64,000 nucleotides of DNA, taken from assembly GCF_003788585.1 (NCBI RefSeq), contig NZ_AYKG01000009.1, forward strand, positions 1-64,000, read 5' to 3'. The notes below the pieces were generated by a model, which saw only the letters and a list, made by a program, of their open reading frames with translations, was not told the DNA's origin and did not search any database. Shown piece after piece: positions 3,364-51,195 of the stretch; positions within the stretch are counted from its first letter, which is position 1, and the number at the start of each line of letters is the position of its first letter. Both the position numbers and the translations under genes were made by a program. The stretch is from Salinisphaera japonica YTM-1. GTDB taxonomy: Bacteria > Pseudomonadota > Gammaproteobacteria > Nevskiales > Salinisphaeraceae.

Positions 3364-3828
3364 ATGCGCTCGACTCATCTTTTCCGTGGCACCATCTCGT
3401 TGGCTCTAGCGGCCTGTTTTGTCGCCGCGCCGGCGCTGGCGGCCCCGAACAACCCGGATGATGTGATCTACCCGCGGGATCTGCTCAAGGCCAAACCGGC
3501 CCAGGCCAAGCAGTATCAGAACGTCGTCAAACCCGTGGCCAGCGAACATGCCTGGATCGGAAAGGGCGGCACCCAGACACCGGTGACCGAGGTCTCGTTC
3601 GGCGGCACCGACTACGCCGTGCTGTCCAGCTGCAAGCCGCACGACTGTGCCAACGAAAACCTTGTTGTCCTGCTGCCGGGCAGCAACACGGCACAGGGTG
3701 AGGCCGTCGGCGCGCTCGTCGCCAATACCGGCGATCAGGGTCTGGGCCCGGCCCGATCCACGATCACCTGGCTCGGCGAGCCGGCCCGCGATCAGCGCCG
3801 TTTTCTGGGGGCGTATCTGTTTCGTTGA
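3364..3828 (+). CDS. ivy: Inhibitor of vertebrate lysozyme family protein (Ivy)
   Basis: This 154-residue secreted protein has a signal peptide of about 26 residues ending APALA-AP. The mature domain carries the hallmark Ivy loop CKPHDC (about residues 84-89), which plugs the lysozyme active site, and the conserved WIGKGG and FGGTDYAVLSSC stretches. The family inhibits C-type lysozymes and can also restrain the cell's own lytic transglycosylases in the periplasm. A ribosome site (AAGGA) precedes the ATG. The gene is 44 bp after gpgS and so probably in the same transcript, an unexpected companion for osmolyte genes. Recognition is strong because of the CKPHDC motif. Confidence 0.88.
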   Translation: MRSTHLFRGTISLALAACFVAAPALAAPNNPDDVIYPRDLLKAKPAQAKQYQNVVKPVASEHAWIGKGGTQTPVTEVSFGGTDYAVLSSCKPHDCANENLVVLLPGSNTAQGEAVGALVANTGDQGLGPARSTITWLGEPARDQRRFLGAYLFR

Positions 3829-3982
3829 ACAACGGCGGCTCCGGCGGGTTCGCCGGCTGATCGCGCGTGCTCATGAAATCAGCGCTCACCCCCGGGCCAT
3901 CGAACCAATCGTCCCAGCGGGAATCACGCGGGGTGGGCCTCGTTAACGTCTCGTGTGTCATCACCATCACCATCACCTGCAA
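3829..3982. other. Convergent gap between ivy and the phosphorylase gene
   Basis: This 154-bp gap between convergent genes holds a 6-bp GC hairpin (CCGGCG-GGTT-CGCCGG, 3841-3856) without a following T run on either strand. It also holds a short ATCACC tandem repeat (about 3958-3976). I see no gene and no convincing intrinsic terminator. Confidence 0.4.
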
Positions 3983-5707
3983 TCAATCGCTGATCCAGGC
4001 TACTTCATAAGCCGCTATATTCAGCATCCGGCGCCCGTCCTCGATCTCGGCGCCGGTGACGACGTTATGCCAGGTGGTGGCGTCGGGCAGGTGATGGGTC
4101 GGGATATCGATCGCAGTATCGCTGACGTTATGGATCGCCAGCAGGGTCTGGCCGCTGGCCTTGCGTTCCAGGGCGAACAGGCCGGGGCCGAGATCGACGA
4201 CGCTTTGGTCCGCGTCGGGATGAAAGGCCGGCTGCGCGGCGCGTACGGCGAGCAGGTGCTTGAGGCGGGCCAGTACGGTGGCCGGCGCGGAGTCTTGCGC
4301 CAGGGTGCGATCCAGTTCGCCGGCGTCGTATCGACGCCGGTTGATGGCCCGGCTCATGCCGGTGGCCTCGACGCCGCCCCGATCGTTGTGGGTGGCCACC
4401 AGGCTATGAAAATACAGCGCGGGGATGCCGGCCAGCGCCATGGTGATCGCCTGGCTGACCACGAAGCGATCGATATGCGCCGGCGTATCGCGCGCCTCGG
4501 GCGCGGCCAGCAGGTCGTAGTAGCTGATGTTCAGCTCGTAGGGCCGTGTGCTGCCGTCGCTCATTGATCGGGTGGAGACGAAGCCGCCGCGGGCGCGCGT
4601 GCTCTCAACCAGTGCCGTCAGCTCGTCCTCGTCAAGAATCGATTCCACCGAGCGCACGCCGATGCCGTCGTGGCTGGCGGTGAAGTTGAGAAAATGACAA
4701 CCGGCCGGCAAGGGCGGCAGGCTCGCTGCCCAGGCCGAAAGCTGGCGGGCATCGCCGCCCAGCAGCGTATGGGCGATCAGCGGCGGCAGCACGAACTGAT
4801 AAGCCACGTGGGCCTCGTCGCCATCGGTGAGATACGAGATGTTCTCGGCGTGCGGCACGTTGGTTTCGGTGATCAGCAGCGCGCCCGGGGCATAACGATC
4901 GATGAGTGCCCGCAGGAACTTGATCACCCGATGGGTCTGCGGCAGATGAATACAGCTCGTGCCGACTTCCTTCCACAAAAAGCCCACGGCATCCAGGCGC
5001 ACCAGGGCGGCCCCGCGGGCGATGTATTCCAGAATGATATCGATGAACTCGCGCAGGACCTGCGGGTTGGAGAAATCCAGATCGATCTGGTCATCCGAGA
5101 ACGTGGTCCATAGATGACGCGGGCCGCGGGCGGTGGCCACCTCGGTCAGAAGCGGGGTGGGCCGTGGTCGAGTGACCGAGCGCAGATCGGTTTTCGGGTC
5201 CATCTCGATGAAATAATCCCGGCCCGGGTCGGCGTTGGCCAGATAATGGGCAAACCACACGCCGCGGCGCGAGGCATGGTTGAGGATCAGATCGAACATC
5301 AGCGGTTTGTCGTCGGACAGATCGTTGATGTCTGCCCAACCGCCGTAGTCGGCGTTGACCGCACGATAATCCTTGACCGAAAAACCGCCGTCGGAGCTGG
5401 CCGGGTAGAAGGGCAGGATATGAACCGCGCTGACGGCATCGGCCAGATGATCGGCCACGAAGTCACGCAGGGTGGCCAGCGGGGCCTCGCCGGGGCGCTG
5501 AACGATATCGGGATAGGTGATCATGAGGTTCAGTGAGGCATCCACGGCCAGCGATACCGTGCGCGGCAAGCCATGACGGCGTGCCGCATCCTGAGCGGCC
5601 TCCACGCATTCGCGGGCCGGCCCGTCGCCGTAGAGCGGCACGAGCCATTCGACCAGATCCTGCTGTGTCGGCGTGGCCGCCAGGCTGTTTGAAACAACAT
5701 CGCTCAT
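3983..5707 (-). CDS. GH13_18 glycoside phosphorylase, probable glucosylglycerate phosphorylase
   Basis: This protein of about 574 residues is of the sucrose-phosphorylase type (GH13 subfamily 18), with a TIM barrel. The nucleophile Asp is in VRLDAVGF, the acid/base Glu in LITETNVPH, and the third carboxylate in FTASHDGIGVR. Subfamily members phosphorolyse sucrose, glucosylglycerol, glucosylglycerate or sucrose-6-phosphate. Convergent placement beside gpgP-gpgS makes glucosylglycerate the best guess: glucosylglycerate plus phosphate to glucose-1-phosphate plus glycerate. I chose the ATG at 5707 (MSDVVSNSL) because AGGA lies 10 bases upstream. ATG 5749 and TTG 5758 are possible longer starts with poorer ribosome sites. 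Substrate specificity cannot be read from sequence alone. Confidence 0.82.
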   Translation of the reverse strand: MSDVVSNSLAATPTQQDLVEWLVPLYGDGPARECVEAAQDAARRHGLPRTVSLAVDASLNLMITYPDIVQRPGEAPLATLRDFVADHLADAVSAVHILPFYPASSDGGFSVKDYRAVNADYGGWADINDLSDDKPLMFDLILNHASRRGVWFAHYLANADPGRDYFIEMDPKTDLRSVTRPRPTPLLTEVATARGPRHLWTTFSDDQIDLDFSNPQVLREFIDIILEYIARGAALVRLDAVGFLWKEVGTSCIHLPQTHRVIKFLRALIDRYAPGALLITETNVPHAENISYLTDGDEAHVAYQFVLPPLIAHTLLGGDARQLSAWAASLPPLPAGCHFLNFTASHDGIGVRSVESILDEDELTALVESTRARGGFVSTRSMSDGSTRPYELNISYYDLLAAPEARDTPAHIDRFVVSQAITMALAGIPALYFHSLVATHNDRGGVEATGMSRAINRRRYDAGELDRTLAQDSAPATVLARLKHLLAVRAAQPAFHPDADQSVVDLGPGLFALERKASGQTLLAIHNVSDTAIDIPTHHLPDATTWHNVVTGAEIEDGRRMLNIAAYEVAWISD

Positions 5708-48917: not shown

Positions 48918-50537
48918 TCAGCGCGTGTGGCCGGTATTGAACTCGCGCACGGCGGCAAAGCTGATGTCCGGCCAGCGTTCTTCGGTGAGCTGGAGTTTCA
49001 CGCGCGAGGGGGCCAGATAGACCAGGGCGCCGGCGTGATCCTCGGCGATGCCGGTATCCATCTTGTTGCGAAACCGATCGATCTCGCGTGGTTCGCCGTA
49101 GATCCAGCGGGCGGTGAAGACCTCGATGCCTTCGAAGCCGGCATTCACGTTGTATTCCGTGCGCAGGCGTTCGGCCACCACGTCGAACTGGAGCGTGCCG
49201 ACCGCGCCCAGAATCACGTCGTTGTTATGCAGCGGGCGAAAGACCTGCGTCGCGCCTTCTTCGCACAGCTGGTCAAGGCCCTTGTGCAGCGCCTTGGCCT
49301 TGAGCGGGTCACGCAGCACCACGCGCTGGAACAGTTCGGGCGCGAAATTCGGGATACCGGTGAAGGCCAGCTCCTCGCCCTCGGAAAAACAATCGCCGAT
49401 GGCGATCGTGCCGTGGTTGTGGATGCCGATGATATCGCCCGGCCAGGCGGTGTCGGCGTGCTCGCGCCGATTGGCCATGAAGGTGATGGCATCACCCACG
49501 CGGATATCCTTGCCCGCGCGCAGATGGCGCATCTTCATGCCTTTCTGATAATGCCCGGAGCAGATCCGCATGAAGGCGATACGGTCGCGATGCTGTGGAT
49601 CCATGTTGGCCTGGATCTTGAACACGAAGCCGGATAACGGTTTTTCGGTCGGCGTGACCTCGCGCGAGACGGTCTCGTGCGCCTGTGGGGCCGGGGCCCA
49701 TTCCACGAACGAATCCAGCAGGGGCCGGATGCCGAAATTATTGACCGCCGAGCCAAAGAACACGGGGGTGACTTCGCCGGCCCGATAGCGTTCCAGGTCG
49801 AAGCCAGAGCCGGCCTCGCGCACCAGCTCGATCTCCTCGAGCAGATCGTCGTAGTAATCGCCGGCGATCTCTTTCAGGCGATCATCCGCCAGCCCGTCGA
49901 GCGTGATCGTGCGCCCGCCGGCCTCGTTGTCGCTGCCTTCGTAGAGATGCACCTTGTCTTCGAGCAGGTGATACACGCCCTTGAACGCCCGGCCCATGCC
50001 GATCGGCCAAGTGATCGGCGCGCACTCGATCTTCAGGATATCCTCGATCTCGTCGAGCACCTCGATCGGCGGGCGCCCGTCGCGGTCCATCTTGTTGATG
50101 AAGGTGAAGATCGGCGTGGTACGCAGCCGACAGACCTCCATCAGTTTGATGGTCCGGGGCTCCACACCCCGGGCGATATCGATGACCATCAGGGCCGAGT
50201 CGACGGCTGTCAGCGTGCGGTATGTGTCTTCGGAGAAGTCTTCGTGGCCCGGTGTGTCCAGCAGGTTGACGATGCGCTCGTTGTAAGGGAACTGCATCAC
50301 CGACGTGGTCACCGAAATACCACGCGATTGCTCCATGGCCATCCAGTCGGAGGTGGCGTGCCGTGAGGCCTTGCGGCCCTTGACCGTGCCAGCCAGCTGG
50401 ATCGCACCGCCGAACAGCAGCAGCTTTTCTGTCAGCGTGGTTTTGCCGGCGTCCGGATGAGAAATGATGGCGAACGTGCGGCGCAGATCGGCTTCCTGCG
50501 CAGTCGCGGCATCGGCAACCGCTTCGGGCTGATTCAT
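48918..50537 (-). CDS. prfC: Peptide chain release factor 3
   Basis: This 539-residue translational GTPase has G1 [11 protein letters not shown], the G2 region [13 protein letters not shown]3 DTPGHEDF and G4 FINKMDRDG. The RF3-specific [15 protein letters not shown] and GPTGALQ-like QFDVV regions lie near the C-terminus. It recycles RF1 and RF2 from the ribosome. GGAG lies 7 bases before the ATG, and a 9-bp inverted repeat sits in the leader. Confidence 0.96.
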
Positions 50538-50574: not shown

Positions 50575-50669
50575 TCTGACTGGACTCGGTTTAATAAATG
50601 TATAGTGCAGTGCTATATGCAATACAGGCAGAAACAATTAGCGGATTAAAAACGATCCGACTATAGTCT

Positions 50670-50851
50670 TAATCGAACGCAACGGAGCAATTCCGTTGCT
50701 ACAGCAGAACCGGTGTTCCCCCTTCACCGACTCTGCGGATGCAGCCGCCTCTTACCCGAGTCCGGTGGCTGCTTCCTCCGTGTCGTCCGCCCCCTGGCGG
50801 CACGGTTAAGCTGGCCCGGGTCGGATGCCCTCCCGATCCGGGCCTCTTTTT
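50670..50851 (+). ncRNA. Candidate structured small RNA with intrinsic terminator
   Basis: This non-coding stretch of about 180 nt between prfC and acyP is transcribable only rightward: a TATAGT -10 box (50662-50667) precedes it and a strong terminator ends it. Hairpins in order are 50679-50699 (8-bp perfect stem) and 50711-50729 (5 bp). Next come either 50733-50744 (CTGC-GGAT-GCAG) or the mutually exclusive 50741-50772 (9-bp stem). 50778-50805 follows (two stacked 5-bp stems with a bulge), then the terminator. GGA sits in exposed loops more than once, reminiscent of CsrA targets. It matches no RNA family I can name. Confidence 0.42.
50813..50851 (+). terminator. Strong intrinsic terminator of the candidate sRNA
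   Basis: GGCCCGG (50813-50819) extended by five further pairs matches CCGGGCC (50838-50844), giving a stem of about 12 bp and then TCTTTTT. There is no T run on the minus strand, so it serves a plus-strand transcript, although both neighbouring genes are on the minus strand. Confidence 0.85.
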
Positions 50852-50859
50852 GTCTGGTC

Positions 50860-51138
50860 TCAGCGAATCTCGAACGGCTGCTGCAATACCGTTTGTGTAT
50901 CTGCAACGCCTGTTTCGGCGATTTCGCGCACCACCGCACCGGCTGGCCCGTGTCCCAGCCAGCGAGCCAGCGTATCGAGTGCCTCTGCCGGGCCGGCGGC
51001 CGTGACCTCGACATCGCCGTCCGGGCGGTTGGCGACCCAGCCCGCCAGATCCAGGCGTCGCGCCTCGGCCTGTGTCGCGGCCCGAAAGCCCACGCCCTGA
51101 ACGGTGCCCGTGACACGGAAATAGCGGGTTTCGGACAT
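50860..51138 (-). CDS. acyP: Acylphosphatase
   Basis: This 92-residue protein has the two acylphosphatase signatures: VTGTVQGVGFRAAT with the catalytic Arg (residue about 19) and GWVANRPDGDVEV with the catalytic Asn (residue about 37). It hydrolyses carboxyl-phosphate bonds such as acyl phosphates. Its end converges with the candidate small RNA. It is divergent from the hypothetical gene at 51196. Confidence 0.94.
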   Translation of the reverse strand: MSETRYFRVTGTVQGVGFRAATQAEARRLDLAGWVANRPDGDVEVTAAGPAEALDTLARWLGHGPAGAVVREIAETGVADTQTVLQQPFEIR

Positions 51139-51195
51139 GCTTAAAGGCGTATACTCAGGGCGAGCCGTGAATTATACATGCTCGGAGGCACGCGC

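Follow-up and report, generated by a model that had tools for sequence, protein, structure and literature searches.

A conserved candidate small RNA with C-rich loops beside prfC in Salinisphaera

The intergenic region between prfC and acyP of Salinisphaera japonica YTM-1 carries what appears to be an independent gene for a structured small RNA (sRNA), here called the prfC RNA. We read it as a trans-acting sRNA with its own promoter and terminator, the C-rich loops of which would pair with G-rich Shine-Dalgarno (SD) regions and repress envelope and uptake genes (probability about 0.72). Gene anatomy, structure, conservation, covariation, loop invariance and complementarity to specific ribosome-binding sites (RBS) are read from the sequence, and from these we infer transcription, its start site, base-pairing in vivo, repression and the target list. 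An earlier note on the window (the whole stretch of 64,000 nt that was analysed) had proposed an independent, structured, plus-strand sRNA at this position, and conservation, covariation, the unchanging promoter box and the terminator all lend this proposal strong support.

Including its -10 box, the gene spans positions 50662-50851 of the plus strand, and lies between the divergent prfC (48918-50537; peptide chain release factor 3, Pfam RF3_C and GTP_EFTU) and the convergent acyP (50860-51138; acylphosphatase, from the Pfam Acylphosphatase match and synteny), both of which are on the minus strand, as had been noted. The TATAGT box at 50662-50667 points to a transcription start at about 50673-50675, and the RNA of about 178 nt would run from 50673 to 50851, where its end is given by the terminator. 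CTATA is invariant in the aligned loci, as is the T two bases further on (TATANT). A scan for sigma70 promoters at the sRNA gave no well-scoring -35/-10 pair and the -35 is weak; a TTRG-type -35 is possible about 18 nt 5' of the -10 box. Upstream of both the sRNA and the divergent prfC is a conserved element, GTATAGTNCANNNCTAT (50600-50616, plus strand), with opposed TATAG/CTATA. It occurs exactly once per genome in 13 of the 14 Salinisphaera genomes, between prfC and the sRNA, and a reversed control has no occurrence. The contig of the fourteenth genome (G011) begins downstream of it, and the element is kept in all congeners whose contig spans its position. It might serve as the promoter of the divergent prfC, as a second promoter for the sRNA or as a dedicated operator.

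Five hairpins, all on the plus strand, make up the predicted RNA. SL1 (50679-50699) is a perfect 8-bp hairpin with a loop that is not C-rich, SL2 (50704-50736) has the loop UUCCCCCUU at 50716-50724, with a predicted unpaired probability of about 1.0, SL3 (50737-50776) is a double stem with CUUACCCGAG at its apex, SL4 (50778-50805) carries the loop CGCCCCCU, and SL5 (50813-50851) is an intrinsic terminator with a 12-bp stem (50813-50844), a loop with GCCCUC and a T-tract at 50845-50851. C-rich loops are thus found on four of the five (UUCCCCCUU, CUUACCCGAG, CGCCCCCU and AUGCCCUC). The TATAGT box, the 8-bp stem-loop, the double stem and the plus-strand terminator stem followed by TCTTTTT had all been described earlier and are present where they were placed. 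The SL4 hairpin is present too and had not been singled out, and the run of C-rich loops, the conserved feature, had gone unnoticed.

The plus strand folds at -95.4 kcal/mol, compared with -62.4 ± 4.3 kcal/mol for shuffled sequences (z -7.68; 0 of 200 as low). Its complement gives a z of -4.8, so the fold alone leaves the strand unfixed; the T-tract together with the unchanging -10 box sets it. Compensatory changes, which the earlier note had suggested looking for in related genomes, were found. In an alignment of 13 rows with a consensus structure of 47 pairs, 96.6% of cells are paired and 16 pairs show double changes (42 cells), among them three in SL1, four in SL3 and seven of the ten in SL4, where covariation is clearest. 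None of 500 shuffled alignments reached the observed values on any measure, and pairing drops to 33–52% when the consensus structure is slid along the alignment. The conservation of structure and loops across the 13 further congeners is far beyond chance.

The sRNA is single-copy in its own genome, and DNA searches recovered homologues in all 13 other Salinisphaera genomes (14/14 in total); a pattern scan of named genomes led to S. hydrothermalis, S. halophila, S. shabanensis, S. orenii and others of the genus. By tblastn, it adjoins prfC wherever the locus covers that gene; the G011 contig opens with the sRNA itself. With a covariance model made from 13 sequences, matches of 54–57 bits were obtained in two sister-genus genomes, also between prfC and acyP. 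Covariance-model searches of 85 genomes of the order gave no recognisable copy beyond Salinisphaera and the sister genus. No such RNA was recognised at 30 prfC loci from other genera, among which the third genus of the family is without a recognisable copy, and the 369 genomes sampled from the class yielded no credible additional homologue. The sRNA would seem either to have originated in the lineage of Salinisphaera and its sister genus or to have been retained only there.

Several weaker matches were set aside. That of G153 in the class sample (43 bits) starts within the last part of what looks like a PEP-CTERM gene, close to the end of its contig. Two further matches within the genus were not taken as paralogues: a weak second one in G009:C14 spans the 3' end of a protein-coding gene and a terminator, and that in G003:C50 is a lone terminator-like match. 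In several congeners (loci L008, L009 and L011-L014) the sRNA terminator is separated from acyP by some 800 bp of additional DNA. The sequence NZ_JAGHQU010000005.1, titled Endozoicomonas sp. G2_2, falls within Salinisphaera by kinship and by its sRNA, and is probably from a mislabelled genome. A protein-coding reading was also rejected: the homologues are 189–201 nt long with indels of 1–2 bases, and since their lengths differ by single bases no reading frame is kept. An overlapping 143-aa ORF (50713-51144) runs antisense through acyP and was discarded as a gene.

Within the genus, the loop tracts are near-invariant (CCCC and UCACC in SL2, CCCGA in SL3, CCCC in SL4 and GCCCUCCCGA in SL5). The stems of the two sister-genus genomes are largely different in sequence, and still UUCCCCCUU persists in the SL2 loop, which reads UUUUCCCCCUUU or UUUCCCCCCUUU (UUYCCCCCUU), and ACCCCCUAG (ACCCCCU) is retained in the loop of SL4; the SL3 apex and SL5 loop are not C-rich there, though the terminator is kept. 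As the SL2 and SL4 loops are C-rich in both genera they look like ancestral seeds, and the seeds of SL3 and SL5 look like a Salinisphaera feature.

Under the proposed mechanism, the RNA would be transcribed from its own housekeeping-type promoter, end at the intrinsic terminator and fold into the five hairpins, and its C-rich loops would serve as seeds that pair with the G-rich SD regions of trans-encoded mRNAs, blocking ribosome binding and so repressing translation. The predicted repressed set comprises binding proteins of the DctP (TRAP) and OpuAC (betaine) types, OmpW-like proteins and, probably, TonB receptors. Eight bases of the SL2 loop are exactly complementary to AAGGGGGA, and the genus has 99 occurrences of the pattern AAGGGGGA-N2-8-ATG versus about 16 of the reversed pattern. 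Targets were sought by pattern and 88 of these places were taken and translated, so that the gene sets are samples. A hydrophobic N-terminus is found in 55 of the 73 AAGGGGGA genes of at least 80 aa (75%) and in 6 of 22 AAGGAG controls (27%; p = 7e-5), a pooled p-value that overstates independence because related genomes contribute the same orthologues; for the S. japonica YTM-1 genome alone, the counts are 8/10 and 6/22 (p = 0.008). The control set is small (22 genes), and the candidate target genes were picked for complementarity. AAGGAG was used in place of a first control, AAGGAGGA-N2-8-ATG, which gave just four sites. G5-type RBSs are unusually common in this genome (12 sites of the AAGGGGGA pattern versus the four of the AAGGAGGA pattern).

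The genes preceded by AAGGGGGA appear to encode mostly exported or transport proteins. Recurrent groups are DctP-type solute-binding proteins (six genomes), TonB-receptor-like (five members), OpuAC-like (four) and outer-membrane-like proteins (three), and further genes code for a pilin, symporters and lipoproteins. Pfam searches of the S. japonica YTM-1 set matched OpuAC, DctP and NMT1-like, with OmpW just below the cut-off; the names of the other groups are our reading of the sequences. At the dctP RBS, GGGGG is present in all nine orthologues with a readable start region while the flanks change, and the predicted pairing of prfC RNA loops at this site, about -12.5 to -17.5 kcal/mol, beats nearly all shuffles in every case but one; among the loops tested, that of SL2 ranks first or close to first. 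The opuAC RBS has GGGGG only in S. japonica YTM-1 (G000) and the close relatives G010 and G011, and GGGAG or GAGGG elsewhere. Since G-rich motifs are also ordinary SD variants, part of this RBS signal is expected without any sRNA, and the targets are predictions.

The polA-engB gap of Salinisphaera holds a second C-rich sRNA system, a tandem array with 47 units in 12 genomes (3–6 each), for which the flanking genes polA and engB were read in two genomes (loci L095 and L097). That of S. japonica YTM-1 is at G000:C8:6559-7490 (L095 3040-3973, minus strand). At locus L098 (G006:C9, genome G006), an IS5-like transposase element, recognised by eye, has apparently inserted between array units at about 3380-4730. 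Ahead of most units stands GGAACTT or GAACTC, followed after about 16 bases by GTCT, which we take to be the form of sigmaE promoters. The units reach 48.3 bits with the sX13 model (gathering score 50) and also match the anti-hemB, ar14 and ErsA models, and a match to several family models indicates that these models respond to a common design. The polA-engB gap is the locus of ErsA (PMC8575079), which is sigma22-dependent (PMC7565897), and sX13 is encoded downstream of polA (PMC3771888). A model of the array units recognises SL4 and the terminator of the prfC RNA at 26–33 bits. One could imagine, tentatively, that the prfC RNA (constitutive and multi-loop) and the polA-locus family (induced by envelope stress through sigmaE) form one two-branch system, competing for or jointly silencing the same GGGGG-type RBSs. 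If true, G5 RBSs would mark an uptake and envelope regulon that could be addressed through nothing but loop sequence.

With their similar C-rich loops, the polA-locus sRNAs could be what really regulates these mRNAs. Alternatively, the prfC RNA might be a sponge or decoy, its loops mimicking the polA-locus loops or the anti-SD and competing for a shared protein or RNA partner with no repression of mRNAs. The presence in the same genomes of three to six polA-locus sRNAs with similar loops (UUUUCUCCCUGA, UUCCCCCAAG and UUCCCCC) agrees with this, as does the recognition of SL4 and the terminator by the array model. However, like loops do not pair with one another, so that titration would require a common target, and most of the tested RBSs are matched better by loop 2 than by the array loops; we regard a decoy as unlikely. 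A cis-acting element, whether a leader or switch for some gene downstream or an element that regulates prfC, is very unlikely, even though the RNA shares its intergenic region with the divergent prfC promoter, given that its neighbours are on the opposite strand and that it terminates before acyP, a gene about 800 bp distant in several congeners. The idea of a switch came from a shared GCAG (50741-50744), which is indeed able to pair with CTGC at 50733-50736 or at 50769-50772, but the competing CUGC/GCAG hairpin is not conserved: 8 of 13 sequences pair it in full, the others break it with no compensating change and it shows no covariation, while both main stems stay paired.

The terminator lies some 15 bp beyond the stop codon of acyP, and the minus strand could make use of its stem, so the locus might be construed as a bidirectional terminator, or a 3' structure of acyP, accompanied by chance hairpins and having no function of its own. 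This is highly improbable in view of the four additional hairpins with covariation, the fixed loops and the invariant -10 box; moreover, a scan gave no minus-strand terminator there, and the sRNA is conserved even where acyP is 800 bp away. The earlier, weak suggestion of a CsrA/RsmA-binding role, here considered as that of a sequestering RNA, drew on GGA motifs, and the window does have GGA in SL1 and near the base of SL3, but most congeners have GGGGC, GGCGC or GGGGT in place of the GGAGC of SL1, and the sole widely kept GGA sits in the terminator stem. Several conserved GGA motifs in exposed loops characterise CsrB, RsmY and RsmZ, whereas the prfC RNA has no conserved loop GGA, its sites are too few and Rfam returned no Csr-RNA match; a CsrA/RsmA role is scarcely credible.

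Read as a trans-acting repressor, the prfC RNA would add a lineage-wide case in halophilic gammaproteobacteria to the C-rich-loop sRNAs, which are known from a few distant groups. It would also be genetically simple, with one copy, a fixed locus, differing loops on one molecule and a short predicted target list, one that includes an osmoprotectant binding protein. Alongside the sigmaE-type polA array, it offers a natural system for studying how overlapping C-rich seeds divide their targets.

A search of the whole window against Rfam, on both strands, gave no family at its gathering score, nor the opposite-strand match that would have spoken against a plus-strand RNA, and a literature search for sRNAs of prfC/acyP or of Salinisphaera returned nothing relevant. 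Relaxed searches showed weak likeness to ar7, sX13 and ctRNA_pGA1, all at about 21–22 bits. The sRNA sX13 of Xanthomonadaceae (RF02232), in which C-rich loops act on G-rich mRNA motifs near start sites independently of Hfq (PMC3771888), resembles the prfC RNA in its apical CCCC/CCCCC loops on hairpins and in having little unpaired sequence, and C-rich apical loops on stable stems, a feature of that family, are found here. However, sX13 has three stems, is about 115 nt long and is always downstream of polA, whereas the prfC RNA has five stems, is about 178 nt long and lies beside prfC; its sX13 score is 20.8 bits against a gathering score of 50, with no match above the cut-off in the genus. In alpha-r14/NfeR1, three loop anti-SD motifs on variable stems silence mRNAs at the RBS, including those of ABC transporter binding proteins and ntrBC (PMC10746234). 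This RNA and the cuckoo RNAs (RF02344, alphaproteobacteria) share with the prfC RNA the conserved loop anti-SD motifs on sequence-variable stems, but homologues of the prfC RNA score 33–41 bits (best 41.2) and do not reach the gathering score of 58.8, and the three hairpins of alpha-r14 with their identical CCUCCUCCC motifs contrast with the five of the prfC RNA, in which the motifs differ between loops and CCUCCUCCC is absent. Alpha-r7 (RF02342), with C-rich apical motifs in three stem-loops (PMC3771888), gives a weak full-length match (21.4 bits; gathering 60) and differs in stem number. ErsA of Pseudomonas aeruginosa (RF01719), a gammaproteobacterial regulator, is similar in kind to the polA-engB array and differs from the prfC RNA in locus, promoter type and architecture. 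The differences from these families in stem number, loop sequence, locus and score indicate a new family of a known kind. The prfC RNA bears conserved C-rich seeds, that of SL2 predicted to be unpaired, as in the sRNAs that block RBSs with C-rich loops, and on the basis of this anatomy we propose that it works like sX13 and alpha-r14/NfeR1.
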